Shown here: positions 1,517 to 39,524 of the stretch, one piece after another
Position numbering within the stretch: position 1 is the stretch's first letter
Layout: each line of letters opens with the position of its first letter
DNA from: Archivesica marissinica
Taxonomy: Eukaryota > Mollusca > Bivalvia > Venerida > Vesicomyidae
DNA: 64,000 nucleotides
Reading direction: 5' to 3'
Assembly: GCA_014843695.1 (NCBI GenBank)
Contig: CM026400.1
Coordinates: 15,396,653 to 15,460,652 of the forward strand
Position numbers and translations under genes: made by a program
Notes under the pieces: model-generated
The model's database searches: none
What the model was told of the DNA's origin: nothing
What the model saw: the letters and a program-made list of their open reading frames with translations, nothing else

Positions 1517-1630
1517 CTCGGCTGTTCCTCCGTTATCCAATGTCCATGCTCCAGTAATCTATGACACCTCAACTGCACCTCGACACCAGACGGGATGCCC
1601 TCAGAGGGTAACTTGCTGTAACTGTATCCA
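1517..1630 (-). CDS. SMG7: SMG7 exon 15, last one in window
   Basis: Reads (S)GYSYSKLPSEGIPSGVEVQL, RCHRLLEHGHWITEEQP and two bases of Arg, aligning with human RQQRLISIGKWIADNQPR. I chose acceptor ttgtag because it restores both phase and length; an in-phase acceptor 9 bases downstream is also possible. The next exon is beyond the left edge. Confidence 0.87.
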
Positions 1631-4600
1631 CTACAATATACAGTCAAACATGTATTAAGAGGCCACCCAAGGGGAATACAAAATGTGGTCTCTGGTACAA
1701 CATTATGCTAAAGTTGAAACGTTAATAACTATTGCGAAAGTGTTTCTATTTATAAATAGACTAATTAATTATAAACTATTTATTTTAATTACTAAGTTTG
1801 TTTCTTTGTAGTTCTGAACAAAGTAAGAGAACAGAATCAAAATGGAAAATGAACTGAATAGGTTTTTGATTTTAAAATGAAAACTATAAAACATATCGAA
1901 AATAATGTTCGTTTGTTCAGGTTTTACCCCCATTATAAGCACCATTTTGGGCTATATTGCCAGCGGGCAGTTTACCTAATAACACCTTTCCTGGGCAGGC
2001 TCCAGCAGGTAACCAGTACTTGGGTGCAACAACTTCCGTAAGAAACTGCCAACTTTGGTATATAAAGAGACACGGCCTGAGCGGGGCTCGAACCCGTGAC
2101 CATCAGTGATGATAGGTTTACAGTGGTATACAAGTCACCGACCTTAACCACTCGACGATGGAGGCGGTTGTGACAGACATCTGACAGGTTACAGTGGTAT
2201 ACAAGCCAGCGACCATAACCACTCGACGATGGAGGCGGTTGTGTCAGACATCTGACAGGTTACAGTGGTATACAAGCCAGCGACCATAACCACTCGATGA
2301 TGGAGGAGGTTGTGTCAGACATCTGACAGGTTACAGTGGTATACAAGCCAGCGACCATAACCACTCGACGATGGAGGCGGTTGTGACAGACATCTGACAG
2401 GTTACAGTGGTATACAAGCCAGCGACCATAACCACTCGACGCTGGAGGCGGTTGTGTCAGACATCTGACAGGTTACAGTGGTATACAAGCCAGCGACCAT
2501 AACCACTCGACACTGGAGGCGGTTGTGACAAACATCAGACAGGTTACAGTGGTATACAAGCCATCGACCATAACCACTCGACAATGGAGGCGGTTGTGTC
2601 AGACATCTGACAGGATACAGTGCTCTACAAGTCAGCGACCTTAACCACTCGACGATGGAGGCGGTTGTGACAAACATCAGACAGGTTACAGTGGTATACA
2701 AGTCAGCGACCATAACCACTCGACGATGGAGGCGGTTGTGTCAGACATCAGACAGGTTACAGTGGTATACAAGCCAGCGACCATAACCACTCGACGATGG
2801 AGGCGGTTGTGTCAAACATCAGACAGGTTATAGTGGTTACAAGCCAGCGACCATAACCACTCGACGATGGAGGCGGTTGTGTCAGACATCTAACAGACGT
2901 CTGACAGGTTACAGTGGTATACAAGTCATCGACCATAACCACTCGACGATGGAGGTGGTTGTGTCAGACATCTGACAGGTTACAGTGGTATACAAGTCAG
3001 CGACCGTAACCACTCGACGCTGGAGGCGGTTGTGTCAGACATATGACAGACGTCTGACAGGTTACAGTGGTATACAAGCCAGCGACCATAACCACCCGAC
3101 GATGGAGACGGTTGTGTCAGACATCTGACAGGTTACAGTGCTCTACAAGTCGAACCTTTAGTTACAAGAGAGTTGTATAATTTACCTTTGAGCTTTTTCT
3201 ATTGGTTGGAAACACCTTAACTCTGCATCTTCAGGCAGTGGTAAATCTTCATCTAGAAACAGAAAAACAGTTTTGAAACGCGACGATCAATTAAGAAAAC
3301 ACTTAGTAACATGTAATAGTAGTCAAACCTGTAATAAGCAGCCGGCCAAGGGAATCAAATATAGTGGCTGCCTAGCACAGGTGACTGCTTAACCCTTAAC
3401 TTCATAGAAGCACCTCTTGACGCCATTACCAATACGACATACATTGACAACCCTTTCCCTCATAGAAGCACCTCTTGATGCCATTACCAATACGACATAC
3501 ATTGACAATGTAGTAGCCAAGCCAATGTTCATAATAAAGGCCAGAATCTCTATGTAGTCCCAGTAATATATATGGAGGTGGGATAGATATGGCGACTACT
3601 TATCCACTGCATGATAGCTAAATGGCTTGTCGTTTGTATGGAGATATAATAGTATATTAGCATAAATATATATGAAGGAAAGGGTTAATAGAGGTCAAAT
3701 ATATAATAAAACAACATATTGGGAATCTTCAAACTGGCTGCTTAATACAGGTTGGCTGCTTAATAGATGTGACCACTAACACAGGTTTAACTGTATAATA
3801 GATGTGACCACTAACACAGGTTTAACTGTACTTACATTTGGAAATGTCTTGTTCTACGTCGTTTATCTGCGAGGATTGTATGCTGTTAAGAACCTTGCAC
3901 AAATTTCCCCATAATCTGCAAGAGATTATAAAATCATAAATCATAGCCTAAACACTGTATTAAATTCTCTACAGTCAAACCTGTCTTAAGCAGCCAGCCA
4001 AGGGAATCACAGAACGTGGCCCACTTAGCACAGGTGGCTGCTTAATAGAGGTCAAATGTATAATAAAACAACACATTGGGAATATATAAACTAGCTGCTT
4101 AATACAGGTTGGCTGCTTAATAGAGGTGACCACTAACACAGGTTTGACATCATACCAATTTCTCTCATAATTTGAGGGGGTAGTTTGGGGGCTAGAGAAC
4201 ATGTCCCTCACTTCTGACATGGGGCAAATTAGAGGTGACCACTAATGCAGGTTTGACTGTATATGCAATCTTTTTTTTTCTTCAAATGGAATCTATAATT
4301 CCCATGGAAATATATTCTAGTGTCCGGGCTCATCCTAAGGGCCGACATGGGCAAATAGTCACCCTAGGGACATTGACTTCGCCCCCCCTGGGGGCCAACT
4401 TTGAAAATAGAGTTTGTGTGTTTTACGTTTATTTATCGTCGCTACCGATTGCCCATATGAGCGACGTCTCCTGAAAAGATGTCATTTTATATTTTTGGAG
4501 GATAGTGCAATGATACAGACAGAGACCAATTCCAGAATATCCTCCGGTTCTGTTACGTGCACGGTGTACAGCACCGACACAAGACCTCGGTTTAACGTCC

Positions 4601-7600
4601 CATCTGAAAGACTGTTCATTTTATTATGGTCAGACGGGGGATCGAACATGTGATCCCTGGATTACCAGTCCAGCGTGTTACCACTGGACTACAGATCCGT
4701 CTGTTAGAAAATAGAATAAAAAAAGTGCTATTATAACTACATCTTGCCCAGTAAGATACACTAGCCATTGTAAAGCACTCCTATTGTTATGTATCTAATG
4801 GTCATTGAGCATTTTAAATTATAGACGGATCTGTAGACCAGTGGTCATCCATGCATTCAATGTCGAGTGCACACAATGGAGATTGAATGCTACATACGAA
4901 GATTTTCTGAGGACCGGTCTATAGAAGTTGCCAGGGTTGAGCTTGAGCCAGTCTAGGAAGAGTTTGCTGGCCGGCAAGGTGAAGTAGTCGCACACTTTAT
5001 GCTGCTTGGGCGTGTACTGCAGCAAGATGTCCATCATGTTCACTGAAGGCAGATAAATACATTGATGCAACAGCTAAATTTCTAAGCATTATTTACATAC
5101 CGCCTACGGAACGGGAGGTCGAGGGTTCGAACCATGTCAGTTATGTTATATTTCGGGTTTTACGCCTGCATCAGCACCATTTCGGGCTATATCGCCAGCG
5201 GGCAGTATACCTAACAACACCTTTCCTGGGCAGGCTCCAGCGGTTAACCAGTACTTGGGTGCACCAACCTCCGTAAGAAACTGCCAACTTTTTCATATAA
5301 ATGAGACACGGCCTGAGTGGGGCAGCGACCTTAACCACTCGACCACGGAGGTGGACTCGAACCATGTCAGGGGTTCATTCTGATATGGCCGCTTGGTGAG
5401 CTGGTTTATATCTCACTGCTTTGCACGTGTGGTACCTAGCCGTTGCATGTTGAAATGTTGTCACACGCGAACATTTTCGGACTCAAGCTGATTATGATAT
5501 CGTGTATGATATCTTTTATGACAAGACATTAGTTTAAAATAATTTATTTATTATCGATTGCGAAACAAGTTCTCACAACTTATATTGATCACTCTCGAGA
5601 CCTCATTCCTGATGGAATCCATCGCCACGAGGAAGAGAGAGAGAAGAGGCAACATGGAATTTAAATGCCATGTCCAAGGGCACAATCGTAATGGCTCCAG
5701 CGAGGATCGAACTCCGGACCTTTCGCACCTGAATGCACTACCACTGCGCTATCACAACTTCCAAGACGTTCTAGTAACCTTTAGCGACAGTTGCATTTGT
5801 TTTCTATCATAAAAAAAATTGCTTGTGTGGGCTATATCGCGATTTCATATTATTTGTTTTTAAACTTTATTTATTTTACAACGATTGCGAAGCAAGTTTT
5901 AACAACTTATATTAATCACTCTCGAGATTTCATTGCACATGTATTGTATTGTGCAGTTCGTGTGTAACAACTTACCTGTTAAGGAAAAGACGAGATTAAA
6001 GCAGCTCTCCTCATCATTGGTTAGGTCCAAGTCCCCGTTCGTCAACCCCGACTCCCCGTGCCCGGAGTCGGTCATGTGCTGCACGTGATTCATGGCGAAG
6101 ATGTTGATAGCCACTATGTGCACGAGAACCTGCCACGGGAAACTCTGGGAGGTCACGTGCGCTGGAAGACCGGCGGCCAGCTTCTCAGAGAGGTCTTGTG
6201 CTTTTATCAGATCTAAACAAGATATTTGCACAGATTATCATATCGGTTCATATGAGTGGAAGCACACATTTATTTTACCTCGATTGTTTACAATTAGATC
6301 AAGCGCTCTCGACACCTCGTTCCTGCTGGAATTCATAGCCATGAGGGAGAGAGGAGAGGCAATGTGGATTTAAGTGTCTTACCTATGAAAACCACTACCG
6401 TGGTTCAGACGGGGCTCAAACTCACAACCGCTCGGTTACAAGGCAGACACCCTATCCATTACACCATGCCGTGTGGCGGCTCCGTTATATAGTCATATAC
6501 ATTTACAATAATTACTATCCGGTTATAATTGACATCTAAGCGATTATGATTTTGAAACCGATTGCCCAACATCACTAGAGTGATCAGCAAGTGGGAACCG
6601 ATTGCCTACCATCACTACAGTGATCAGCAAGTGGGAACCGATTGCCTAACAAGTGGGAACCGATTGCCTACCATCACTACAGTGATCAGCAAGTGGGAAC
6701 CGATTGCCTAACAAGTGGAAACCGATTGCCTACCATCACTACAGTGATCAGCAAGTGGGAACCGATTGCCTACCATCACTACAGTGATCAGCTAGTGGGA
6801 ACCGATTGCCTAACAAGTGGGAACTGATTGCCTACCATCACTACAGTGATCAGCTAGTGGGAACCGATTGCCCATCACTAACCTGTACATAGATGAACTA
6901 AGGACAAGTAGACACTAACCTGTACATAGATGAACTAAGAACAAGAAGACACTAACCTGTACATAGATGAATTAAGGACAAGTAGACACTAACCTGTACA
7001 TAGATGAATTAAGGACAAGTAGACACTAACCTGTACATAGATGAATTAAGGACAAGTAGACACTAACCTGTACATAGATGAATTAAGGACAAGTAGACAC
7101 TAACCTGTACATAGATGAATTAAGGACAAGTAGACACTAACCTGTACATAGATGAACTAAGGACAAGTAGACACTAACCTGTACATAGATGAACTAAGAA
7201 CAAGAAGACACTAACCTGTACATAGATGAATTAAGGACAAGTAGACACTAACCTGTACATAGATGAACTAAGGACAAGTAGACACTAACTTGTACATAGA
7301 TGAACTAAGGACAAGAAGACACTAACCTGTATATAGATGAACTAAGGACACGTAGACACTACCCTGTATATAGATGAACTAAGGACAAGTTGACACTAAC
7401 CTGTATATAGATGAACTAAGGACAAGTAGACACTAACCTGTATATATATGAACTAAGGACAAGTAGACACCAACCTGTACATAGATGAACTAAGAACAAG
7501 TAGACACTAACCTGTACATAGATGAACTAAGGACAAGAATACACTAACTTGTACATAGATGAACTAAGGACAAGTAGACACTAACCTGTACATAGATGAC

Positions 7601-10600
7601 CTAAGGACAAGAAGACACTAACCTGTACATAGATGAACTAAGGACAAGTAGACTATAACCTGTACATAGATGAACTAAGGACAAGAACACACTAACCTGT
7701 ACATAGATGAACTAAGGACAAGTAGACACTAACCTGTACATAGATGAACTAAGGACAAGTAGACACTAACTTGTACATAGATGAACTAAGGACAAGAAGA
7801 CACTAACCTGTACATAGATGAGCTAAGGACAAGTATACACTAACCTGTACATAGATGAATTAAGGACAAGTAGACACTAACCTGTACATAGATGAACTAA
7901 GGACAAGTAGACACTAACTTGTACATAGATGAACTAAGGACAAGAAGACACTAACCTGTATATAGATGAACTAAGGACATGTAGACACTACCCTGTATAT
8001 AGATGAACTAAGGACAAGTTGACACTAACCTGTATATAGATGAACTAAGGACAAGTAGACACTAACCTGTATATATATGAACTAAGGACAAGTAGACACT
8101 AACTTGTACATAGATGAACTAAGGACAAGTAGACACTAACCTGTACATAGATGACCTAAGGACAAGAAGACACTAACCTGTACATAGATGAACTAAGGAC
8201 AAGTAGACTATAACCTGTACATAGATGAACTAAGGACAAGAACACACTAACCTGTACATAGATGAACTAAGGACAAGTAGACACTAACCTGTACATAGAT
8301 GAACTAAGGACAAGTAGACACTAACTTGTACATAGATGAACTAAGGACAAGAAGACACTAACCTGTACATAGATGAGCTAAGGACAAGTATACACTAACC
8401 TGTACATAGATGAACTAAGGACAAGAAGACACTAACCTGTACATAGATGAACTAAGGACAAGTAGACACTAACCTGTACATAGATGAACTAAAGACAAGT
8501 AGACACTAACCTGTACATATATGAACTACGGACAAGAAGACACTAACCTGTACATAGATGAATTAAGGACAAGTAGACACTAACCTGTATATAGATGAAC
8601 TAAGGACAAGTAGACACTAACCTGTACATAGATGAACTAAGGACAAGAAGACACTAACCTGTACATAGATGAACTAAGAACAAGAAGACACTAACCTGTA
8701 CATATATGAACTAAGGACAAGAAGACACTAACCTGTACATAGATGAACTAAGGACAAGTAGACACTAACCTGTACATAGATGAACTAAGGACAAGTAGAC
8801 ACTAACCTGTACATATATGAACTAACGACAAGAAGACACTAACCTGTACATAGATGAACTAAGGACAAGTAGACACTAACCTGAACATAGATGAACTAAG
8901 GACAAGTAGACACTAACCTGTACATAGATGAACTAAGGCATGGAACTGTAGGAAGCCAGTTATCATCTCGCTGGCAGATAGCTTCCCCTTGAATTCTGGA
9001 CTGTAATAAAAGTTTAAACTCTAAGTGACAGAAGTTGTGACAGTGACTTAAGACCATATGGCCTAAGTTGTCAAGGTGACTTAAGACCATATGGCCTAAG
9101 TTGTCACAAGGACGTAAGACAATATGACCTAAGTTGTCACAGTGACTCAAGACCACATGACCTAAGTTGTGACAGTGACTTAAGACAATATGACCTAAGT
9201 TGTCACAGTGACTCAAGACCACATGACCTAAGTTGTGACAGTGACTTAAGACCATATGACCTAAGTTGTGACAGTGACTTAAGACCATATGACCTAAGTT
9301 GTCACAGTGACTTAAGACTATATGACCTAAGTTGTCACAGTGACTCAAGACCACATGACCTAAGTTGTCACAGTGACTTAAGACTATATGACCTAAGTTG
9401 TCAAGGTGACTTAAGACCATATGACCTAAGTTGTCAAGGTGACTTAACACCATATGACCTAAGTTGTCAAGGTGACTTAAGACCATATGGCCTAAGTTGT
9501 CACAGTGACTCAATACCACATGACCTAAGTTGTCACAGTGACTTAAGACAATATGACCTAAGTTGTCACAAGGACGTAAGACAATATGACCTAAATTGTC
9601 ACAGTGACTTAAGACAATATGACCTAAGTTGTCACAAGGACGTAAGACAATATGACCTAAGTTGTCACAAGGACGTAAGACAATATGACCTAAGTTGTCA
9701 CAAGGACGTAAGACAATATGACCTAAGTTGTCACAAGGACGTAAGACAATATGACCTAAGTTATCAGAGAGACGCTCCTCTCCCTAGCCAAATACCTATT
9801 GTGAATGCAACATGTACAGTCAACCCTGTGTTAGCAGTCACCTGTATTAAGAGGCCACATACAACAATCCCAATGTGGCAATTTGTTCAACTAATAACCT
9901 CTATTGAGCAGCCACCTTGACTAAACAGCCATTTTCATCATTTGCTTGGCTGGCTGCTTAAGACAGGTCCAACTATTTCCCTTAGCTGGCTGCGTAAGAC
10001 AGGTCCAACTATTTCCCTTAGCTGGCTGCTTAAGACAGGCCCAACTATTTCCCTTAGCTGGCTGCTTAAGACAGGTCCAACTATTTCCCTTAGCTGGCTG
10101 CTTAAGACAGGCCCAACTATTTCCCTTAGCTGGCTGCTTAAGACAGGTCCAACTATTTCCCTTAGCTGGCTGCTTAAGACAGGCCCAACTATTTCCCTTA
10201 GCTGGCTGTGTAAGACAGGTCCAACTATTTCCCTTAGCTGGCTGCTTAAGACAGGCCCAACTATTTCCCTTAGCTGGCTGCGTAAGACAGGTCCAACTAT
10301 TTCCCTTAGCTGGCTGCTTAAGACAGGTCCAACTATTTCCCTTAGCTGGCTGCTTAAGACAGGCCCAACTATTTCCCTTAGCTGGCTGCTTAAGACAGGC
10401 CCAACTATTTCCCTTAGCTGGCTGCTTAAGACAGGCCCAACTATTTCCCTTAGCTGGCTGCTTAAGACAGGTCCAACTATTTCCCTTAGCTGGCTGCTTA
10501 AGACAGGCCCAACTATTTCCCTTAGCTGGCTGCGTAAGACAGGTCCAACTATTTCCCTTAGCTGGCTGCGTAAGACAGGTCCAACTATTTCCCTTAGCTG

Positions 10601-13600
10601 GCTGCTTAAGACAGGCCCAACTATTTCCCTTAGCTGGCTGCGTAAGACAGGTCCAACTATTTCCCTTAGCTGGCTGCTTAAGACAGGCCCAACTATTTCC
10701 CTTAGCTGGCTGCTTAAGACAGGCCCAACTATTTCCCTTAGCTGGCTGCGTAAGACAGGTCCAACTATTTCCCTTAGCTGGCTGCTTAAGACAGGTCCAA
10801 CTATTTCCCTTAGCTGGCTGCTTAAGACAGGCCCAACTATTTCCCTTAAGACAGGTCTGACTAAATCTCATTTTCATCATTCCCTTGGCTGGCTGCTTAA
10901 GACAGGTTTAACTATATCTCAGATAATACTTACGTTTCTTTTGTAAGTTTTGCATAGAGTTTTTCGAGATTAGTCGCTGCAACAGGAAATGGCATTTTGA
11001 CAGCCAGGCTGCGGACGTAGTAGAAGACAGTCGAGAGTTTGTTCCCCTTAGCAGCCTCGAGAATAGCTAACTGATTGTACGGCTGACCTGAAAATACACG
11101 GTTTTTGTCAAACATTGAAGCTCCTGAAAACATATTTAGTCTTAGAGAATAGATAACCAATTGTACGATCGACAGAAAAATACTATTTTTCTTCTTCATA
11201 CCTTTAACCGTTTCCCTCATGAAAGCACCTATTGACGCCATTAACAATACGACATACATTGACAATGTAGTAGTCAAACCAATGTTCATAATTAAAGCCA
11301 GAATCTCATGTAGTCCCAGTTATATCTATGGAGGTGGGATAGATATGGTGACTACTCATCCACTGCATGATAGCTAAATGGCTGTCGTTTGTATGGAGAT
11401 ATAATAGTATATTAACCTAAATCTCTATGTAGTCCCAGTAATATCTATGGAGGTGGGATAGATATGGCGACTACTTATCCACTACATGATAGCTAAATGG
11501 CTGTCGTTTGTATGGAGATATAATAGTATATTAACCTAAATCTCTATGAAGGAAAGGGTTAAATGTCTGTCGTTTGTATGGAGATATAATAGTATATTAA
11601 CCTAAATCTCTATGAAGGAAAGGGTTAAATGTCTGTCGTTTGTATGGAGATATAATAGTATATTAACCTAAATCTCTATGAAGGAAAGGGTTAAATGACT
11701 GTCGTTTGTATGGAGATATAATAGTATATTAACCTAAATCTCTATGAAGGAAAGGGTTAAATGGCTGTCGTTTGTATGGAGATATAATAGTATATTAACC
11801 TAAATCTCTATGAAGGAAAGGGTTAAATGTCTGTCGTTTGTATGGAGATATAATAGTATATTAACCTAAATCTCTATGAAGGAAAGGGTTAAATGTCTGT
11901 CGTTGTATGGAGATATAATAGTATATTAACCTAAATCTCAATGAAGGAAAGGGTTAAATGTCTGTCGTTTGTATGGAGATATAATAGTATATTAACCTAA
12001 ATCTCTATGAAGGAAAGGGTTAAATGTCTGTCATTTGTATGGAGATATAATAGTATATTAACCTAAATCTCTATGAAGGAAAGGGTTAAATGTCTGTCGT
12101 TTGTATGGAGATATAATAGTATATTAACCTAAATCTCAATGAAGGAAAGGGTTAAATGTCTGTCGTTTGTATGGAGATATAATAGTATATTTACTTAAAT
12201 CTCTATGAAGGAAAGGGTTAAATGTCTGTCGTTTGTATGGAGATATAATAGTATATTAACCTAAATCTCTATGAAGGAAAGGGTTAAGACAGGTCTGACT
12301 ATATACCCATGGATTCAGTATTGTACCAGATACAGCAAATTGTCTGGTTGATACAACTGGTTTCACTTGTACATTTACATTTAGGAAACTTTACATTAAA
12401 TTACTTATAACTACAACGATTAGGTCATATGGTGACCGTCAAGCTATTACTGATGGGGGGCAAGACCCCAGACCCCTCCGAACAGTCATTAATGCATGGG
12501 CGGACACACGGGTAGAACCACTGATCTACCGCAAGCCAGCTGGATAGCTTTCTCAACAGAAAGAATCTGATTCCTCCAGTGGGATTCGAACCAGTCGTAG
12601 TGAAGGGCAAGTGATTTGAAATCAACGACCGTAACCACTCGGCCATGGAGGTCACCCTACTATACACATGATAAATCAACTCATAATTTACACAAATATC
12701 TCTTAGCTGAATTGCAAAACAAAACTAGCATGGAAATGTACATGGAATTTACCACAAACAAAAACAGATGGGCCCAGTAGTAACACACTGGACTGCGAAT
12801 CCAGGGATCGCAGGTTTGATCCCCTGTCTGACCCTAATAAAATTAACAGTCTTTCAGATGGGACTTTAAACCGAGGTCTTGTGTCAGTGCTTTACACCGT
12901 GCACGTAAAAGAACCAGAGGAGACTCTGGAATGGGTCTCTGTCTGTATCATTGCACTATCCTCCAAAAATCTAAACTGACTAATCTCTTCAGGAGGCGTC
13001 GCTCATATGGGCAACCAGTAACGACGATAAATAAACGTAAAACACAAACGACTAACAAAACTAGACATCTAATGAAATGGTTTACAGATTCTCAAATTAT
13101 AATCTTGAGTCGAAGTCACAAATTGACTCCCGTGGAAGTCAAGACAGTTTATCAATTCTGCCGCATTTTGTGCCTTTGGTGACCGACAGCGGGAAATATG
13201 CCTGATCATCCATGTTGCATCTAAACTGACCAAGTGGAGCCAACATTAACTGAAATGTAGTTTCCTTGGCGCAATGAATATGGTGTCCTCATTCTGAGCG
13301 AGAGGTTTCCAGTTTGAGCCCATGTTGATACAGTGACCACGGTGTGATATCCTTAGTCAAGACTCTCTTTTATCCACACTGTCTCTCCTCTTGCACTCAT
13401 GAATGAGGTCTCGAGAGCGATTTAAAAAATAGTTTTCTCAAAAACTTGTTTTGTAATCGAGCTAAAATGAAATTGCATAAACTAAACTTAATAATTTAAT
13501 ACAAATAGCGTTGATGTTTTTTTGTAACCAATCAGTGTACATTAGTCTATAGTTCTGTCTAGAGTGCGATGTGGGACCCTAGGGACCCTGACTTTGCCCT

Positions 13601-16600
13601 CTGGGGCCCACCCCACTTCGCCCTAAAAAAAATTTAATTTTTTTTATATTTTCATACAATTACAAATTTATTTAGCTTGAATGTAAAACAAGTTTGTACA
13701 GCATTAATCTAAGCGTTCTCTCGAGACAATTGCAAAGAGGCAAGAAGAGGCAATGTGGATTCACATTTCTTGCCCTCGAAGGATATTACAACAGTGACTC
13801 TGTTGGGGCTCGAACTTGAAATCCCATTGCTATGAGGCAGGCAATACATCCAGTACACTACGGGGCTCGAACTGGAAATCCCATTTCTACGAGGCAGGCA
13901 ATACATCCAGTACACTATGGGGCTCGAACTTGAAATCCCATTGCTACGAGGCAGGAACTACATCCAGTACACTACGGATATTAAATTATAACGGCCTTAC
14001 CGTTGAAAGGAATGAGATATGCAGCGTGCCAGTAGTAAGTTTGAGCCTGGTCAATCTGCTGCCGGTAGCGAGCTGTCAAATTTAAAATATTAATAATCAC
14101 AAGAATATAATATATAAACACAGAACAGTTCACGGTTTCTAAGTTAAAACTTTATTTATTTTACGATTGCAAACCAAGTTTTAACAACTTATATTAATCA
14201 CTATCGTTGGCGCGGAAATAAAAGCGTAAATGTGGTCATTCGTGTGGGAGGAAACCGGAGTACCCGGAGAAAACCCATCTGTCCGATCTGGCGACCACCG
14301 TACAACAGCTTCTAATGTATTTACTATTAAAAATGTATAGACTTCATTTATTTTATAACAAATGTGAAACAATCTTCAACAACTTATATTAATCACTCTC
14401 ATTGAAAGCACAGTAATAAAACCGTTGGAATATTCCACTACTGTATAGGTAAGGCAGTATACGATAGCTTGCTGGTAATGTGACGTATTGTTTAATGCTA
14501 ATAACCTGACTTACCTGTAATGCGAATATTGTATCGTATATTAGTTATTGTGAAAGCACTATATCAACTCTAATCCTCAAATACCGTCTCCGTGGCCTAG
14601 TGGTTAAGGCGTTCGCCTACAGCGCGGGAGGTCGAGGGTTCGAATCTCATCAGGGGTTCGTTCTGATACGGCCGGTTGGTGAGCCACCAGCTAGTTAAAT
14701 AATGGTTACCGATTGCCTACCAACCTGCCGCCTGGGATAGGAAGCATAGGAAGTATTGATGTTCATAAAAAGAGGTGTCTCATAAGTCAGAAATGGCTGG
14801 CCCTTTAAATATGGGGTGACACTATAATAAACAAACACTTTTACTTACCAATATCACCAAGATGTACCAAACAATGTTGACAAACATACAAACACGAGCT
14901 CTTCTTCGGGGGAGTTACTTTTAGCTTCACTGAAGTTCTCTCTGAAATAGACAGTAATCCTGAATATCGAGCAAGACCGGCGTGAAAGAAATTTACAATT
15001 TATTTGATCGCGAAATCATGTGAAATTTGTGCAACAGTGGAAATTAATGACAAGAAAGTTTGCAGACCTTTCATTACACCATAGAAGGCTGATTTTCTCC
15101 AGCTTGAACGTTGTGAAAGATATTTACAATTTTATTTTGCTCGCGAATTCATGTGAAATTTGTGTAACAGTGGAAATTCATGACAAGAAAGTTTGCAGAC
15201 GTTTCATTACACCATAGAAGGCTGATTTTCTCCTGAATAGAAGATCAAGCTTGAACGTTGTGAAAGAAATTTACAATTTATTTTGATCGCGAAATCATGT
15301 GAAATTTGTGTAACAGTGGAGGTCAGACACTGCTATTGCAATTTCCATAGGTCACCATTATAACATACAGTGCCATTATATTTTCCCCCAAAATAGTTTG
15401 GCACAAAAGTCAGTAGTTTTCAACAGACTGGCCTTTGAGCCACAGGAAAATGGCAAATTTCAATGGGGTTGACCGATTGCGGTTTTTTTATTTCCCACTA
15501 AAGGCACCCACCCCCTACTCTGAAAGTAAGTTAGTGGTGAATGTTGCACTGACACCTGCATTTATAATATGCTGTTTATTTGTCACCATATTGTCTGCAA
15601 ATATTTTTAAATATTCCAAAATGCAGCTCATATATTGTATTTTAATATTTAGAAGTCATGTTCACTATTTGTGACAATACCTACTCAGCCAATCAGTTCA
15701 TGTATCAATAACTCTTAAGGGCTTCCCTACACCTTTTCAACCAATCCCAGACCACTATATCAATAACACCGTCTGACCTNNNNNNNNNNNNNNNNNNNNN
15801 NNNNNNNNNNNNNNNNNNNNNNNNNNNNNNNNNNNNNNNNNNNNNNNNNNNNNNNNNNNNNNNNNNNNNNNNNNNNNNNNNNNNNNNNNNNNNNNNNNNN
15901 NNNNNNNNNNNNNNNNNNNNNNNNNNNNNNNNNNNNNNNNNNNNNNNNNNNNNNNNNNNNNNNNNNNNNNNNNNNNNNNNNNNNNNNNNNNNNNNNNNNN
16001 NNNNNNNNNNNNNNNNNNNNNNNNNNNNNNNNNNNNNNNNNNNNNNNNNNNNNNNNNNNNNNNNNNNNNNNNNNNNNNNNNNNNNNNNNNNNNNNNNNNN
16101 NNNNNNNNNNNNNNNNNNNNNNNNNNNNNNNNNNNNNNNNNNNNNNNNNNNNNNNNNNNNNNNNNNNNNNNNNNNNNNNNNNNNNNNNNNNNNNNNNNNN
16201 NNNNNNNNNNNNNNNNNNNNNNNNNNNNNNNNNNNNNNNNNNNNNNNNNNNNNNNNNNNNNNNNNNNNNNNNNNNNNNNNNNNNNNNNNNNNNNNNNNNN
16301 NNNNNNNNNNNNNNNNNNNNNNNNNNNNNNNNNNNNNNNNNNNNNNNNNNNNNNNNNNNNNNNNNNNNNNNNNNNNNNNNNNNNNNNNNNNNNNNNNNNN
16401 NNNNNNNNNNNNNNNNNNNNNNNNNNNNNNNNNNNNNNNNNNNNNNNNNNNNNNNNNNNNNNNNNNNNNNNNNNNNNNNNNNNNNNNNNNNNNNNNNNNN
16501 NNNNNNNNNNNNNNNNNNNNNNNNNNNNNNNNNNNNNNNNNNNNNNNNNNNNNNNNNNNNNNNNNNNNNNNNNNNNNNNNNNNNNNNNNNNNNNNNNNNN

Positions 16601-19600
16601 NNNNNNNNNNNNNNNNNNNNNNNNNNNNNNNNNNNNNNNNNNNNNNNNNNNNNNNNNNNNNNNNNNNNNNNNNNNNNNNNNNNNNNNNNNNNNNNNNNNN
16701 NNNNNNNNNNNNNNNNNNNNNNNNNNNNNNNNNNNNNNNNNNNNNNNNNNNNNNNNNNNNNNNNNNNNNNNNNNNNNNNGATTTCCCCCAAAAATAGTTT
16801 GGCACAAAAGAGAGTAGTTTTCAACAGAATGGCCTTTGAGCCACAGGAAAATGTCAAATTTCAATGGGGTTGACCGATTGCGGTTTTTTATATTTCCCAC
16901 TAAAGGCACCCACCCCCTACTCTGAAGGTAATTTGGTGGTGAATGTTGCACTGACACCTGCATTTATAATATGCTGTTTATTTGTCACCAAATATTTTTA
17001 AATATTCCAAAATGCAGCTCATATATTGTATTTTAATATTTAGAAGTCATGTTCACTATTTGTGACAATACCTACTCAGCCAATCAGTTCATGTATCAAT
17101 AACTCGTAAGGGCTTCCCTACACCTTTTCAACCAATCCCAGACCACTATATCAATAACACCGACTGACCTAGACAATTTTATTTTGCATTTCATTTAATA
17201 TAATAGATATATACCATTACAATAAACATTTCTGCACATAAATATGACTTTCTTATGTCTTCCACATCACCATTGCACAGCACATGCCTTCAAATGGGAC
17301 ACTATGCAGTGTGCTTAACATAGACTGTTGGCCATTTTAGCAATAGAACTCTAAATAAGACATTTATAATGTCGTCACATATTAATCTTTACACTAACAG
17401 TGTAATATTTCTCATGAATATATGAAATAATGTCTGCCCGAGACAGACATACCACATGTATAGTATTAGATAAGACATGGTGGTGATCAGGGACCATTAT
17501 TTTACCCCACCCCCTGCAAAACAAGGGTTTATTTTGAAGAATGGAACTAAATCTTGCACCAGGAAGCTACTGAAAGGAAATAATTATTTGCATGGAGCAG
17601 AAAAAATGTCACACAGACAAAAAGGAAGACAACAAACATGGAAAATGATGGTCATTACAAATGCTGAGTGGGTCAGGCAGCTTACTGTAGGTCACATGAC
17701 AGTAAGAAATGGCAGAAAAGTAATTACAAGATGCATTTAACTTCAGATAGTGTGTCTTGAACAAGCACTGTATGAGGTATACAACTATGTACTGCCACTT
17801 GAAATATGACATTTCATCTTAGGGAGGTGAAGTTTGTTGTAAATATTAATAAATGACTGAAATATAACCACTCAAAAGCAATGCATATGCATATTTGTGC
17901 CATATATTTTACTGAAATTCTTTTTGTGAGGCCCTTGATAGCTACTGGAACCAATTGCAAGCTTGTTTCAATTAAACAACACTATTTCCTAATGAAAAAA
18001 GCAAATTTAACCACAACATACTCACACTGAAGGACACAGATATCAATTATAAAGTATTAACACTAATAAAGGGAGGTAATTTGAACACACCAGCCTGCTT
18101 ATAGGTTCCTATATGCCATTATTTACTCAGTACAATGAATTATTTATCATTGTTGGGTTCATTTTATATCAGACAATGTAAAATGACCACTTTTCATTAT
18201 TTAACTGCATTCACATTGGGCTTATTGTGCCATAATAGGCATCATTAGTGAAGTTTCAATGAATAAAATCCAATGTTGTAGGTCTGAACCAGCATAGTAA
18301 TTATTATCAACAGTAATTAGAATGAAAGTTCCCTGGAAAATTGCACCACAATAAGTACTGCGAAGGAAACCGACAAATTTTAACCAGCGCACATGGAACC
18401 TAGGTGACAGAATTTGCGACATATGTCGCTGAAGCCATTTATTGACTCGCAGCTATGTGAAGAACTGCATTTCTCCAGGCCCTACTGTTGTATGTATTAG
18501 AAACCCATTTGAATTATTAGTTAAGCTTAAAATGGTTCTCAATGTACACCATGAAGTAATTCCCAACTTGATAAACTAGTATATGGGATTCAGATGTTGC
18601 AAATATCTCAGCACAGTCTTTGTATCACAGAGAATAAGGACTAATCTTCATTGTAATCAATACATAAACACCTCAGAACTATGTTATGTAACACCCTGTC
18701 TGGGCTCATATTGCATAGCTACCTATTGTTTCCAGCACTCACACATTCAAATCAAGCCGTTAATTGAAAACAAGCCTCTCCCAGGCAGCATTTTGTTGTG
18801 TAGTACTTTTTAAATAACATCATTCTTTACAGTGTCCTTTAGGTCAGACATCGCTATTGCAATTTCCATAGGTCACCATTATAACATACAGTGCCATTAT
18901 ATTTCCCCCCAAAATAGTTTGGCACAAAAGACAATAGTTTTCAACAGACTGGCCTTTGAGCCACAGGAAAATGTCAAATTTCAATGGGGTTGACCGATTG
19001 CGTTTTTTTTTATTTCCCACTAAAGGCACCCACCCCCTATTCTGAAGGTAATTTAGTGGTGAATGTTGCACTGACACCTGCATTTATAATATGCTGTTTA
19101 TGTGTCACCATATAGTCTGCAAATATTTTTAAATATTCCAAAATGCAGCTCATATATTGTATTTTAATATTTAGAAGTCATGTTCACTATTTGTGACAAT
19201 ACCTACTCAGCCAATCAGTTCATGTATCAATAACTCTTAAGGGCTTCCCTACACTTTTTCAACCAATCCCAGACCACTATATCAATAACACTGTCTGACC
19301 TGGAAATTAATGACAAGAAAGTTTGCAGACCTTTCATTACACCATAGAAGGCTGATTTTCTCCTGAATGGAAGAGGTCCAGCTTATGTGAAATTTGTGTA
19401 ATAGTGGAAATTAATGACAAGAAAGTTTGCACACCTTTCATTACACCATAGAAGGCTGATTTTCTCCTGAATGGAAGAGGTCCAGCTTATGTGAAATTTG
19501 TGTAATAGTGGAAATTAATGACAAGAAAGTTTGCAGACCTTTCATTACACCATAGAAGGCTGATTTTCTCCTGAATCCAGCTTGAACGTTGTGAAAGATA

Positions 19601-22600
19601 TTTACAATTTTATTTTGATCGTGAAATTTGTGTAACAGTGGAGGTCAGACACCGCTATTGCAATTTCCATAGGTCACCATTATAACATACAGTGCCATTA
19701 TATTTTCCCCCAAAATAGTTTGGCACAAAAGTCAGTAGTTTTCAACAGACTGGCCTTTGAGCCACAGGAAAATGGCAAATTTCAATGGGTTGACCGATTG
19801 CGGTTTTTTATTTCCCACTAAAGCACCACCCCCCTACTCTGAGGTAAGTTAGTGGTGAATGTTGCACTGACACCTGCATTTATAATATGCTGTTTATTTG
19901 TCACCATATTGTCTGCAAATGTTTTTAAATATTCCAAAATGCAGCTCATAATTGTATTTTAATATTTAGAAGTCATTTTCACTATTTGTGACAATACCTA
20001 CTCAGCCAATCATTCATGTATCAATAACTCGTAAGGCTTCCCTACACCTTTTCAACCAAACCCAGACCACTATATCAATAACACCGACTGACCTAGACAA
20101 TTTATTTTGGCATTTCATTTAATATAAAAGATATATACCATTACAATAAACATTTCTGCACATAAATATGACTTTCTTATGTCTTCCACATCACCATTGC
20201 ACAGCACATGCCTCAAATGGGACACTATGCAGTGTGCTTAACATAGACTGTTGGCCATTTTTGCAATAAACTCTAAAAAAGACATTTATAATGTCGTCAC
20301 ATATTAATCTTTACACTAACAATGTAATATTTCTCATGAATTTCTCATGAATATATGAAATAATAATAATGAGACAGACATACCACATTATTGTATGTGG
20401 TGATTAGGGACAAATATGTTACCCCATCCCCTGCAAAACAATGTTTTTTTGAAGAATCGAACTAAATCTTGCACCAGGAAGCTACTGAAAGGAAATACTT
20501 ATTTGCATGGAGCACAAAAAACGTCAAACAGACAAACTGGAAGACAACATACATGGAAAACGATGGTCATTATAAATGCTAAGTGGGTCAGATAGCTTAC
20601 TGTCGGTCACATGACAGTAAGAAATGACAGAAAAGTAACCACAATATGCATATAACAACGCTATGTCCTAATTAAAAAGACACATTTTACCATACCATAC
20701 TCATACTGAAGGACAGATATATCAATCATGAAGTATTAGCACAAAGAAAGGGAGGTAATTTGAACATATCAGCATGCTTATAGGTTCCTATAGGCCATTA
20801 TTTACTCAGTACAATGAATTATTTATCATTTATTGGTTGATTTTATTTCAGGCAATGTAACATGAACACCTTTCATTGTTTCTCTGCATTCACATGCGTA
20901 TTGCCATAATAGGCACCATTAGTGACGTTTCAATAAAGCAAATGCAATGTGATAGATCTGAACCAATATAGTAATTCTTATCAACAGTAATTAGAATGAA
21001 AAATCCCAGAAAATTGCCACACAATAAGTACTGCGAAGGAACCGACAAATTTAACAAGCGCACATGGAACCTAGGTGACAGAATTTGCGACATATGTCGC
21101 TGAAGCCATTTATTGACTCGCGGCTATGTGAAGAACTGCATTTCTCCAGGCCCTACTGTTGTATGTATTAGAAACCCCTTTGAATTATTAGTTAAGCTTA
21201 AAATGGTTCTCAATGTACACCATGAAGTAATTTCCAACTTGATAAACTAGTATATGGGATTCAGATGTTGCAAATATCTCAGCACAGTCTTTGTATCACA
21301 GAGAATAAGGACTAATCTTCATTGTAATCAATACATAAACACCTCAGAACTATGTTATGTAACACCCTGTCTGGGCTCATATTGCATAGCTACCTATTGT
21401 GTCCAGCACTCACACATTCAAATCAAGCTGTACATTGAAAACAAGCCTCTCCCAGGCAGCATTTTGTTGTGTAGTACTTTTTAAATAACATCATTCTTTA
21501 CAGTGTCCTTTAGGTCAGACACCGCTATTGCAATTTCCATAGGTCACCATTATAACATACAGTGCCATTATATTTTCCCCCAAAATAATTTGGCACAAAA
21601 GACAGTAGTTTTCAACAGACTGGCCTTTGAGCCACAGGAAAATGTCAAATTTCAATGGGGTTGACCGATTGCGTTTTTTTAAATTTCCCACTAAAGGCAC
21701 CCACCCCCTACTCTGAAGGTAATTTAGTGGTGAATGTTGCACTGACACCTGCATTTATAATATGCTGTTTATTTGTCACCATAGTGTCTGCAAATATTTT
21801 TAAATATTCCAAAATGCAGCTCATATATTGTATTTTAATATTTAGAAGTCATGTTCACTATTTGTGACAATACCTACTCAGCCAATCAGTTCATGTATCA
21901 ATAACTCTTAAGGGCTTCCCTACACTTTTTCAACCAATCCCAGACCACTATATCAATAACACTGTCTGACCTGGAAATTAATGACAAGAAAGTTTGCAGA
22001 CCTTTCATTACACCATAGAAGGCTGATTTTCTCCTGAATGGAAGAGGTCCAGCTTATGTGAAATTTGTGTAATAGTGGAAATTAATGACAAGAAAGTTTG
22101 CACACCTTTCATTACACCATAGAAGGCTGATTTTTTCCTGAATGGAAGAGGTCCAGCTTATGTGAAATTTGTGTAATAGTGGAAATTAATGACAAGAAAG
22201 TTTGCAGACCTTTCATTACACCATAGAAGGCTGATTTTCTCCTGAATGGAAGAGGTCCAGCTTATGTGAAATTTGTGTAATAGTGGAAATTAATGACAAG
22301 AAACTTTGCAGACCTTTCATTACACCATAGAAGGCTGATTTTCTCCTGAATGGAAGAGGTCCAGCTTATGTGAAATTTGGGTAATAGTGGAAATTAATGA
22401 CAAGAAACTTTGCAGACCTTTCATTACACCATAGAAGGCTGATTTTCTCCCTGAATGGAAGAGGTCCAGCTTATGTGAAATTTGTGTAATAGTGGAAATT
22501 AATGACAAGAAAGTTTGCAGACCTTTCATTACACCATAGAAGGCTGATATTTTCTCCTGAATGGAAGAGGTCCAGCGTATGTGAAATTTGTGTAATAGTG

Positions 22601-25600
22601 GAAATTAATGACAAGAAAGTTTGCAGACCTTTCATTACACCATAGAAGGCTGATTTTCTCCTGAATGGAAGAGGTCCAGCGTATGTGAAATTTGTGTAAT
22701 AGTGGAAATTAATGACAAGAAAGTTTGCAGACCTTTCATTACACAATAGAAGGCTGATTTACTCCTGAATGGAAGAGGTCCAGCTTATGTGAAATTTGTG
22801 TAATAGTGGAAATTAATGACAAGAAAGTTTGCAGACCTTTCATTACACCATAGAAGGCTGATATTTTCTCCTGAATGGAAGAGGTCCAGCGTATGTGAAA
22901 TTTGTGTAATAGTGGAAATTAATGACAAGAAAGTTTGCAGACCTTTCATTACACCATAGAAGGCTGATTTTCTCCTGAATGGAAGAGGTCCAGCGTATGT
23001 GAAATTTGTGTAATAGTGGAAATTAATGACAAGAAAGTTTGCAGACCTTTCATTACACAATAGAAGGCTGATTTACTCCTGAATGGAAGAGGTCCAGCTT
23101 ATGTGAAATTTGTGTAATAGTGGAAATTAATGACAAGAAAGTTTGCAGATCTTTCATTACACCATAGAAGGCTGATATTTTCTCCTGAATGGAAGAGGTC
23201 CAGCGTATGTGAAATTTGTGTAATAGTGGAAATTAATGACAAGAAACTTTGCAGACCTTTCATTACACCATAGAAGGCTGATTTTCTCCTGAATGGAAGA
23301 GGTCCAGCTTATGTGAAATTTGTGTAATAGTGGAAATTAATGACAAGAAACTTTGCAGACCTTTCATTACACCATAGAAGGCTGATTTTCTCCTGAATGG
23401 AAGAGGTCCAGCTTATGTGAAATTTGTGTAATAGTGGAAATTAATGACAAGAAACTTTGCAGACCTTTCATTACACCATAGAAGGCTGATTTTCTCCTGA
23501 ATGGAAGAGGTCCAGCTTATGTGAAATTTGTGTATAGTGGAAATTAATGACAAGAAACTTTGCAGACCTTTCATTACACCATAGAAGGCTGATTTTCTCC
23601 TGAATGGAAGAGGTCCAGCTTATGTGAAATTTGTGTAATAGTGGAAATTAATGACAAGAAACTTTGCAGACCTTTCATTACACCATAGAAGGCTGATTTT
23701 CTCCTGAATGGAAGAGGTCCAGCTTATGTGAAATTTGTGTAATAGTGGAAATTAATGACAAGAAACTTTGCAGACCTTTCATTACACCATAGAAGCTGAT
23801 TTTCTCCTGAATGGAAGAGGTCCAGCTTATGTGAAATTTTGTAATAGTGGAAATTAATGACAAGAAACTTTGCAGACCTTTCATTACACCATAGAAGGCT
23901 GATTTTCTCCTGAATGAAGAGGTCCAGCTTATGTGAAATTGTGTAATAGTGGAAATTAATGACAAGAAACTTTGCAGACCTTTCATTACACCATAGAAGG
24001 CTGATTTTCTCCTGAATGGAAGAGGTCCAGCGTATGTGAAATTTGTGTAATAGTGGAAATTAATGACAAGAAACTTTGCAGACCTTTCATTACACCATAG
24101 AAGGCTGATTTTCTCCTGAATGGAAGAGGTCCAGCGTATGTGAAATTTGTGTAATAGTGGAAATTAATGACAAGAAAGTTTGCACACCTTTCATTACACC
24201 ATAGAAGGCTGATTTTCTCCTGAATGGAAGAGGTCCAGCCTATGTGAAATTTGTGTAATAGTGGAAATTAATGACAAGAAACTTTGCAGACCTTTCATTA
24301 CACCATGGAAGATCCAGCTTGAACGTCGTGCACAGAAGTTGCAGAAACTGAAACAGATACAATACAACGTGAGAATAAACAAAACTCTGTCTCCGTGTAA
24401 CGGACACGGTGTCCGCCTTGTAACTGAGAGGTTATGAGTTCGAACCCCGTCAGCACCACGGCAAGACACTTAAATCCACATTACCTCTTCTCCCTGCCTC
24501 ATAATGATGGATTCTATCAGGTATTCGGTCTCGAGAGCGATTAAACTAATGTTGTACGAACTTGTTTCGCAGTCAAGATACAAGAAATTAATGTACAGTC
24601 AAACCTGTCTTAAGCAGCCAGCCAGGTGAATCACAGAAAGTGGCTGCTTAACACAGGTCACTGCTTAATATAGGTCATTTGTATAATAAAACAACGTATT
24701 GGGAATCTGGAAACTGTTACAGGTTGGCTGCGTAATAGAGGTGACTACTAACACAGGTTTGACTGCAAACTAATCTACGTAAAACGGTGATCATTCTAGA
24801 GGGCGATATAGTCGCCCTAGGTACCCTGACTTCGCACCCCCTGGGCGCACTACTTCTCCCTAAACAAACAATAATTACAATTTTCATACAAAGTGTTGTC
24901 CAGTAAGATACACTGGCCCATTATAAAGCACTGCTTCTATTCATATGTTCTATGTAATGGTGATATTGTGTATTTTAACTCTATTTTGATGAAATATATT
25001 AAAGTACGGTAACTCCATTTAACCCATTTCATTCTGGATACCGTTCAAACAGTATTTGCAAAGAGCATAGAGCCAGATCAGCCGCCACGGAACATGCTGT
25101 CTGATCAGGCTCTATGCTGTTTGCTATTCAGATGATCCTCTTTTTTTTTTCAGCTACGAGGAGTAGCCCGTTTATTTTTTTCATGTTGTAATTAACAATT
25201 ACATATGTAAACATATAATATCAATTACAGTCTATCGATACTATATATTAGTATAGTATATGTACAAATGCAATTATTAATTTTTATAAAGAGAGAAGGC
25301 ATTATGTTTGAAAGTAAGATAGCAGGAGAAGAGTTGAAAGAATTCCGATCCAGAATACAAACATCTTTTCAATATCAGTTGCTAATACGATTGCTGTTAC
25401 ATGCTTGTGATTATACTTCTATCAGTCAATATCAATTTGTTCCACTTTCTATTGTGAGCTTCTAGTTTATTTTTCATAAAGGCTATATGTTCTTGTGTTG
25501 TCTTTCTTTTAAATATATTCAGATGATCTTGCTAAGACACTTGGCTATGTAGCAAACAACATAGATCCTGATCAGCATGCAGTGTCACGCTGCGGCTGAT

Positions 25601-28600
25601 CTGGATATATGCTGTTTGCAAGAGCCTTTAAATGTATCCAGAATGAAATGGGTTAAAGACTCAATCACGCACGTTCTCACTTCTCCCAAAAATTCAGACC
25701 TAGAATGAGCGCTGCGTAAATGATACTCAGGCGTTTAACAATTGTAAAAGATCTCACCTGTAGATAGAAGCCACTGGCGGTCTCCAGGAACAAGTTGAGG
25801 GTGGCCTGTAATTCAGCTCGCTTCAAATTCTACAAAATAATACAAGCACATTACGGTAATTACTTGCACATAATTTAGGCATAAAGCGAAAAATAGGTGT
25901 ATGTTATACGTTTATTTATCGTCTCTACCAGCAGGGATCATTCTAGTAAGATACACTGGCCCATTATAAAGCACTCCTTCTATTCAAATGTTGTATTTAA
26001 TGGTTGTACTGTGCATTTTAACCCTATTTTGCAGAAGTATATTAAAGAACACCATTTAAGGAAGCGATCACGCACTTTCTCACTTCTCCCAAAAATTCTG
26101 ACCTAGAATGAACCCTGTACCAGTTGCCCATATGAGCGACGCCTCCTGAAGAGCTTAGTCATTTTAGATTTTTGGAGGATTGTCCAATGATACAGACAGA
26201 GACCCATTCCAGAGTCTCCTCTGGATTTTTACGTGCACAACATAAAGCACCGACACGAGACCTCGGTTTAAAGTCCCATCTGAAAGACTGTTAATTTTAT
26301 TAGGGTCAGACGGGGGGATCGAACATGCGATCCCTGGATTACCAGTCCAGCGTGTTAACCACTGGACTACAGATCCGTCTGTATGAAAAATAGGTTACGA
26401 TGTTTTTGGACTACCGAAATAAATTGAGCAAACCTGAATAAGAAATGTTTCTGTAAAGATAATTTTGAAATTAGTTGACGAGACTCTGACAAGAATATTT
26501 TTAAAGCTTTCATATAAGGGAAATCTTTTTGCAACTTTGATAGACGGTCACCTAACAAAATATTTCTGTGAAATTATTATGAAATCACACTATGAGGGAG
26601 AGAGAACAGGCAATGTGAAATTTAATAGTCTTGCCTAAAGAACCGACACTGTGGTTCTGACGAGATTCAAACTCACAACCTCTCAACTACAAGGCCAACA
26701 CTGTATTCATTACACAACGGAGGCTACAAATTACTTGTTAACCCTTTCCCTCATAGAAGCACCTCTTGACACCATTACCAATACGACATACATTGACAAT
26801 GTAGTAGCCAAACCAATGTTAATTAACGTGTTCCCTCATAGAAGCACCTATTGACGCCATTACCAATACGACATACATGGACAATGTAGTAGCCAAACCA
26901 ATGTTCATAATAAAGGCCAGAATCTCATGTAGTCCCAGTAATATCTATGGAGGTGGGATAGATATGGCCACTACTTATCCACTGCTTGATAGCTAAATGG
27001 CTGTCATTTGTATGAAGATATAATAGTATATTAACCTAAATCTCTATGTAGTCCCAGTAATATCTATGGAGGTGGGATAGATATGGCCACTACTTATCCA
27101 CTGCATGATAGCTAAATGACTGTCGTTTGTATGGAGATATAATAGTATATCAACCTAAATCTCTATGTAGTCCCAGTAATATCTATGGAGGTGGGATAGA
27201 TATGGCAACTACTTATCCACTGCATGATAGCTAAATGGCTGTCGTTTGTATGGAGATATAATAGTATATTAACCTAAATCTATATGAAGGAAAGGGTTAA
27301 GGCTTGTTTCGCATTCATTGCAAAATAAGTTAATACTAAAACACACCCTACCTGCTTGTCCTTAGTTTGAGACTGCAAGTTGTTGATCTGGTTCTTGAAT
27401 GCATTGTTCCATCTACAGTACAGAAATATATACACGCATTATCAACACATATATTTTCAAAATACAGAAATATATACACGCATTATCAACACATATATTT
27501 TCAAAATACAGAAATATATACACGCATTATCAACACATATATTTTCAAAATACAGAAATATATACACGCATTATCAACACATATATTTTCAAAATACAGA
27601 AATATATACACGCATTATCAACACATATATTTTCAAAATACAGAAATATATACACGCATTATCAACACATATATTTTCAAAATACAGAAATATATACACG
27701 CATTATCAACACATATATTTTCAAAATACAGAAATATATACACGCATTATCAACACATATATTTTCAAAATACAGAAATATATACACGCATTATCAACAC
27801 ATATATTTTCAAAATACAGAAATATATACACGCATTATCAACACATATATTTTCAAAATACAGAAATATATACACGCATTATCAACACATATATTTTCAA
27901 AATACAGAAATATATACACGCATTATCAACACATATATTTTCAAAATACAGAAATATATACACGCATTATCAACATATATTTTCAAAATACAGAAATATA
28001 TACACGCATTATCAACACATATATTTTCAAAATACAGAAATATATACTGTAGTCCAGTGGTTAACATGCTGGACTGGTAATCCAGGGATCGCAGGTGTGA
28101 TCCCCCGTCTGACCCTAATCAAATTAACAGTCTTTCAGATGGGACGTTAAACCAAGGTCTCGTGTCGGTGTTTTACACCGTGCACGTAAAAGAACCAGAG
28201 GAGATTCTGGAATGGGTCTCTGTCTGTATCATTGCACTATCCTCCAAAAATCTAAAATGACAAACTCTTCAATAGTCGCTCATATGGGCAACCGGTAGCG
28301 ATGATAAATAAACGTAAAAAAAAACCAACAACAAAACTTACAGCTCCTGCTCGACTTTTTTGTCAAGAGCGTATTCGAGATCGGTGAGGAGGATCTTCTT
28401 ATAGACATCTTCTAACTTCTGTCTCATTACCCAGGTCTCCGATATTGTCTTACTGGAATCTGCAACAGGAGGTTTTTTCATTAAAATATTGTATGTTTTT
28501 GTTTTCAATATTAACCTGAAGTTCATACAATCAATTAGTACTCGAAACCCCCGATGGAAACCAGTATAACTCCCAACGGAAACCAGTATAACTCCCAACG

Positions 28601-37530: not shown

Positions 37531-37999
37531 ACATGCAAAATGGGTTGGGCAACAAGTTCTAGCAACATTAGTAAACTGCCCTCCCCAAAACATACGTTCG
37601 GACCTTTTATTACCTACCCTCGTTTTCTTCGTAGTCAAACATCGGAGGCATATAGCTGTGCACCACAACATTTCTAAACGAGAACACAGACACGCTTGTG
37701 GTCTTGACATGTGGTTTACTCGTTGTAAAATAAATACAGTTTTAAAAAAGGGACACCAAAAAAATTAAATATCTAAAATGCCAAATATATCCGTTCGCTG
37801 TATAAAATGTTGACTGCTAGAGAGCTGAAAGGTCAGTACATAATTATACGTCTAAACTCGCGTCAATACCCCAACCATTTTAAGGAGGAACATGTCCCCG
37901 AACCCCCCCCCCCCTAGATTTCTTCGGTTGAAATTTAAGGTTAAGGTACTGATTGGGTTGAATTTGTGGCAATAATATATTTGGGCTTCATAATGTGGA

Positions 38000-39440: not shown

Positions 39441-39524
39441 CAAGTAGTCGTGAATATGCATCTGGATCGGTTCCTGGAAAATTAAAAAACAATTACTGTA
39501 TTATGTACTGTATATCAAACAGCA

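Follow-up and report, generated by a model that had tools for sequence, protein, structure and literature searches.

The minisatellite of the human IFI6 gene has a 12-bp unit that spans an exon end. Two of its downstream repeat units serve as splice donors and give rise to three mRNA species (PMC4526556). In this work, a tandem array of similar anatomy was analysed in a 64-kb window, by which we mean the whole stretch of 64,000 nucleotides under study. The array lies in a gene for SMG7, a factor of nonsense-mediated decay (NMD), and its 37-bp unit includes the end of a coding exon together with the adjoining donor. As in IFI6, tandem units carry splice donors at an exon/intron boundary, and the donor is kept in the downstream units: CAG/GTTAGT (the slash marks the exon/intron boundary) is found in 44 of 55, as candidate donors. 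The SMG7 unit differs in its length of 37 bp, which is not a multiple of three, in the immediate stop codon that it brings in and in its copy number of about 55. Judged by anatomy, the SMG7 array is of the same kind as the IFI6 minisatellite. No further clear exon-edge donor minisatellite besides IFI6 was found among the literature matches listed.

Other described systems share single features with this locus. The repeat units of UBC are in-frame coding sequence, and the use of dual-specific sites was shown by reverse transcription PCR (PMC10809524). UBC and VCX3A resemble the SMG7 array in that each unit carries AGGT (48 of 56 positions in SMG7) and a whole number of units forms a GT-AG segment, whereas the SMG7 units are intronic, as read from the window. 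Intron gain through tandem duplication with AGGT, including a potato case that crosses an intron-exon boundary (PMC4974935), also involves a short tandem duplication bearing splice signals, but the SMG7 case apparently enlarges an existing intron. The variable number tandem repeat (VNTR) of ABCA7 is likewise an intronic tandem repeat, of variable number, and an effect of its length was measured: length tracks exon 19 skipping and, inversely, expression. The abstract does not describe it as built of exon-end/donor units (PMC5954066). Plant SMG7 is itself under NMD control, although by another route, the 3′ untranslated region (3′UTR) (PMC3711448).

For the SMG7 array, Tandem Repeats Finder (TRF) reported a period of 37, 55.8 copies, 93% matches and a score of 3615, and a chance repeat is ruled out by this copy number and match rate. 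Phased on the end of the exon that we label exon H, the array consists of 55 whole units, running from 8937 downward, and a partial last unit. On the minus strand, exon H ends in CTTAGTTCATCTATGTACAG, followed by GTTAGTG. Unit 1 starts with the last 20 bases of this exon (8937-8918) and is identical to the consensus. Exact units number 10 of 55, and the first 20 bases are exact in 23 of 55, both counts including unit 1. The initial annotation had described the array as an amplified SMG7 exon-end/donor junction, present in about 55 copies of a 37-bp monomer of 20 exon bases and 17 intron bases. Unit anatomy and the gapless SMG7 alignment given below agree with this description, as does the unit count. 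Inside the array, two blocks of units occur twice (Table 1); 7 of 8 unit pairs are identical in the larger block and 4 of 5 in the smaller one, together 11 of 13. Because this block duplication shows turnover of units, the number of units, and with it the length of the array, is likely to differ between individuals.

The identity of the gene was established from its exons. Six joined exons matched PF10373 (E 4.3e-32) and PF10374 (E 3.4e-7) in Pfam; both the EST1 domain and the EST1 DNA/RNA-binding domain of the EST1/SMG5/6/7 family were found, with SMG7 as the best match. Human SMG7 (PDB 1ya0) aligned to the six joined exons with E 2.5e-60, compared with 7.5e-15 for EST1A, so that SMG7 is the closest among the solved structures. 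From this gene, the source of the window would be an animal. Exon H is the eighth of 13 placed exons. Some upstream protein stretches were not found in the window, the longest SMG7 ‘intron’ as placed probably conceals one unplaced exon, and the number ‘exon 10’ given to exon H in the initial annotation is not proven. A run of 1000 N at 15780-16779 marks an assembly gap within a long SMG7 intron. Translated together, exon H and the next exon, exon I, aligned to human SMG7 (PDB 1ya0) with E 4.5e-7 and without a gap at the junction. Since the match runs gapless across the H/I junction, position 8918 is very probably the true end of exon H.

Table 1. Features of the SMG7 locus, in window coordinates
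Feature	Position	Strand	Description
SMG7 gene stretch with 13 placed exons	1517..29778	(-)	AG acceptors, GT donors, protein match
Exon H (‘exon 10’ of the initial annotation)	8918..9000	(-)	acceptor TTTTATTACAG, donor CAG/GTTAGTGT, protein alignment
Authentic donor of exon H, ACAG/GTTAGTGT	8910..8921	(-)	exon ends at 8918, intron starts at 8917
37-bp array, 55.8 copies	6876..8938	(-)	unit = 20 exon-end bases + 17 intron-start bases
Block duplication inside the 37-bp array	7273..8382	(-)	units 16-23 to 31-38, units 24-28 to 41-45
Second tandem array, periods 22 to 102, same intron	6556..6872	(-)	TRF; adjoins far end of 37-bp array
Exon I (next SMG7 exon)	5976..6212	(-)	acceptor TTGTTTAG/ATCTG; completes codon G/AT (Asp)

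Several searches around the array gave no result. Exact 14-base pieces of the consensus unit do not occur elsewhere in the 64-kb window. The RNA fold of three consensus units was not special (z -1.31, 19 of 200 shuffles as good), and no RNA family matched inside the array, the four matches in the window, all to tRNA families, lying elsewhere. A search for SMG7-like loci in viral contigs returned 30 pattern matches, none of which was confirmed. As a separate observation, 13 bases of the upstream exon C (27355-27367) are the exact complement of a part of the 37-bp unit (CTTGTCCTTAGTT). The chance of such a match is about 0.07 for the window and 0.0007 when only antisense matches to placed exons are counted, both calculated post hoc. 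The transcribed array could pair with exon C.

We then compared the donors of the array with that of exon H. Counting the true donor, there are 56 donor positions, with 45 copies of CAGGTTAGT, 6 of CAAGTTAGT, 2 of CAGGTTATA, 2 of CAGGGTAGT and 1 of CAGGTTGGT. The predicted U1 duplex of the common form has -10.1 kcal/mol, which ranks sixth among the 13 SMG7 donors; the 6 units with CAA reach only -3.6 kcal/mol. Splice matrices were built from this one gene, using its 13 acceptors or, with exon H omitted, 12 of its donors. The exon H site scored 8.3 in the donor matrix. Of the 1768 GT sites that the gene stretch contains besides the real donors and the array, 2 attained this value. GT is kept in 53 of 55 units and AG in 49 of 55. 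When the ACAG of the unit was scored as an acceptor, it ranked higher than 90.8% of 1377 AGs elsewhere in the gene stretch and fell within the wide range of the real acceptors. The 9 donor columns show 5 substitution types, compared with 16 in the 28 other columns of the unit. Selection that keeps or removes donors was considered and rejected, as the donor columns vary no differently from the remaining columns; such equal variation neither shows nor excludes use of the donors.

Joining donors 2, 3 or 4 to exon I gave ...LVHLCTG followed by a stop in all three cases, and joining the first donor gave none. The initial annotation had predicted an immediate in-frame stop upon retention, and the retained sequence indeed reads ACA-GGT-TAG. 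The original donor itself holds this TAG, at the start of the intron, and any reading past the true donor would hit the stop with or without the array. Because the unit junction is AG/GT, a retained run of units starts with GT and mostly ends with AG, and is formally an intron. Wrongly retained units could thus be spliced out, restoring the normal junction. The further statement that every misspliced product would be an NMD substrate goes too far: retention brings in a stop, but products of exon skipping, or of a second splicing event within the array, would lack it.

The last 20 bases of exon H encode LVHLCT and supply the following codon with its first base. In human SMG7, the corresponding residues are HVYLSK, inside a gapless, continuous alignment. 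The alignment to snake SMG7 (P0001) likewise runs through the end of exon H, and FLQFHAVIHLN is read close to the end of a spider SMG7 record (P0012). The coding use of this exon end probably predates the array. Since the exon end encodes SMG7 protein and aligns with SMG7 of other animals, the edge of exon H is the most likely source of the array. In three records (P0012, P0035 and P0008, all known as conceptual translations only), an intron apparently lies at the same place or a few codons from it, which looks as if it speaks against a new intron.

Taken together, the array is probably a tolerated intronic minisatellite. A small tandem duplication spanning the exon H/intron junction would have seeded the 37-bp repeat, and slippage and unequal exchange would have enlarged it. 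A duplication across a donor may be nearly harmless, leaving the exon an intact copy, and the array would be tolerated because its first copy keeps a complete exon end and donor in place. Most transcripts would then use the exon-proximal donor, and the array would leave with the intron. Occasional use of a downstream donor would yield a stop-bearing product for NMD, and owing to the GT...AG form of the inserts some misspliced products might be spliced again to normal mRNA. A selected function would not be required. For the 17 merged arrays in the SMG7 stretch, random seeding gave 0.98 exon-edge spanners at present array length and 1.57 with collapsed arrays, as well as 0.79 arrays across a donor edge, the period of each array having been chosen by the analyst; one exon-edge spanner is seen. 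A regulatory reading of the array is unsupported: the donor columns are as variable as the other columns of the unit, and in a gene so rich in arrays random seeding predicts about one edge-spanning array.

Some observations weigh against an origin by accident and later tolerance. The full donor survives at 45 of 56 positions, so that the array is not visibly degenerating into harmless sequence. At the exon end, only 2 of 6 residues are identical to human SMG7. In addition, arrays crowd at exon edges. Arrays are present in 9 of the 12 introns between placed exons, and these nine form the placement test, the three array-free introns standing outside it. With arrays placed at random within introns, 3.50 of the 18 intron ends should lie within 50 bp of an array, and 8 do (P 0.002). 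All distance tests are post hoc, come from one gene, follow a merging rule chosen by the analyst and use four cut-offs; at 10, 25, 50 and 100 bp, the counts were 3, 5, 8 and 11 of 18 (P 0.034, 0.017, 0.002 and 0.004). Restricting the test to arrays of at least 100 bp gave 7 of 18 ends (P 0.008). Under a less strict null model that took in the whole gene, 1.66 of the 26 edges should lie within 50 bp, and 8 do (P 0.0005). The excess lies on the donor side, where 5 of 9 ends are within 50 bp compared with 1.75 expected (P 0.012), or 4 of 8 when the intron of exon H is left out (P 0.03); for acceptors there is no clear excess, with 3 of 9 ends compared with 1.74 expected (P 0.23). This crowding is a weak sign that pure accident does not explain the placement of the arrays.

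Other explanations give the array a role in splicing. The AG/GT of each unit might act as a dual-specific site, as in UBC and VCX3A, so that the array would be removed stepwise, or re-spliced, until the normal junction is restored. The retention of GT, AG and AGGT in most units, by which most inserts are of the GT...AG form, and the high rank of the unit's ACAG among other AGs speak for such a route. It nevertheless seems unlikely to us, as the pyrimidine run ahead of ACAG is poor and the acceptor matrix itself is weak, 2 of the 13 real acceptors obtaining negative scores once they are left out of it. Introns of 37 nt are probably also too short, and only steps of several units are plausible. 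The same ladder could in principle work as a throttle, in which the spliceosome would enter any of the ~55 AG/GT units, wrong entries would be re-spliced or destroyed by NMD at GGT-TAG, and the length of the array would set the amount of SMG7; we consider this very unlikely. The model put forward in the initial annotation amounts to a bank of decoy donors. Use of downstream donors would yield NMD substrates, so that SMG7 output would depend on array length, perhaps through feedback on a gene for an NMD factor. This would fit the 44 of 55 extra positions that match all nine bases of the real donor, the stop in all joins tried, the NMD control of plant SMG7 through its 3′UTR and the length effect of the ABCA7 VNTR. 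However, the donor columns show no sign of selection, the stop is a property of the original donor and would arise without any array, and random seeding would yield about one edge-spanning array, which makes a decoy bank quite improbable.

The remaining alternatives concern the array itself. If the array were the older of the two and had replaced the exon end, the exon then adapting to the repeat, the identity of array and exon end over 20 bases and the low similarity to human SMG7 at this point would be accounted for. SMG7 proteins of other animals align gaplessly across this exon end, and this disfavours an overwritten exon, leaving the idea barely credible. An artefact of assembly as the source of the copy number could be suspected from the 1-kb run of N, which demonstrates that the assembly has gaps. 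The many unit variants and the ordered block repeats are unlike a simple assembly echo, and such an artefact is highly improbable, even though the true number may differ from that in the assembly. A tolerated minisatellite derived from the exon H edge therefore stays the explanation that we prefer.

The window, a stretch of eukaryotic DNA, holds many tandem arrays (63 TRF rows, partly overlapping). A 44-bp array (27419-28047) stops 6 bp ahead of the start of exon C (27412), its units amplifying intron-end sequence beside the 3′ splice site. The 36-bp and 35-bp arrays (9945-10848, 3761-3830) apparently derive from a dispersed element (GCTGCTTAAGACAGGT / ACAGTTAAACCTGTGTTAGTGG), of which several occurrences in the window were noted by eye; one of the two arrays begins 5 bp past the donor of exon K. 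Outside the gene, two long open frames that would encode DDEDMPPVSIPLSDTDT-type repeats extend over a 51-bp array on the plus strand (37962-39574), and the units of the arrays at 39526-41140 and 38020-39432 hold donor-like strings, CCAG/GTAAAA (minus) and TGTAAGTATT (plus). An open frame at 63381-63671 (+) encodes a piece of an amidohydrolase (Amidohydro_2, E 6.8e-12). The four tRNA-family matches (14586-14658, 50089-50161, 12771-12835 and 56941-57014) lie 1.9 to 7.9 bits over threshold; we presume that they are perhaps tRNA-derived repeats.

Laboratory tests of splice-site choice have used duplications of one or two splice sites, far fewer than are present here. Lining up about 56 nearly identical 5′ splice sites, the SMG7 array offers a natural test of how splicing selects one. 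If the donors of the array are ignored, the locus would show the strength of exon context in fixing a donor. If they are used, the amount of an NMD factor would be linked to a fast-changing minisatellite.

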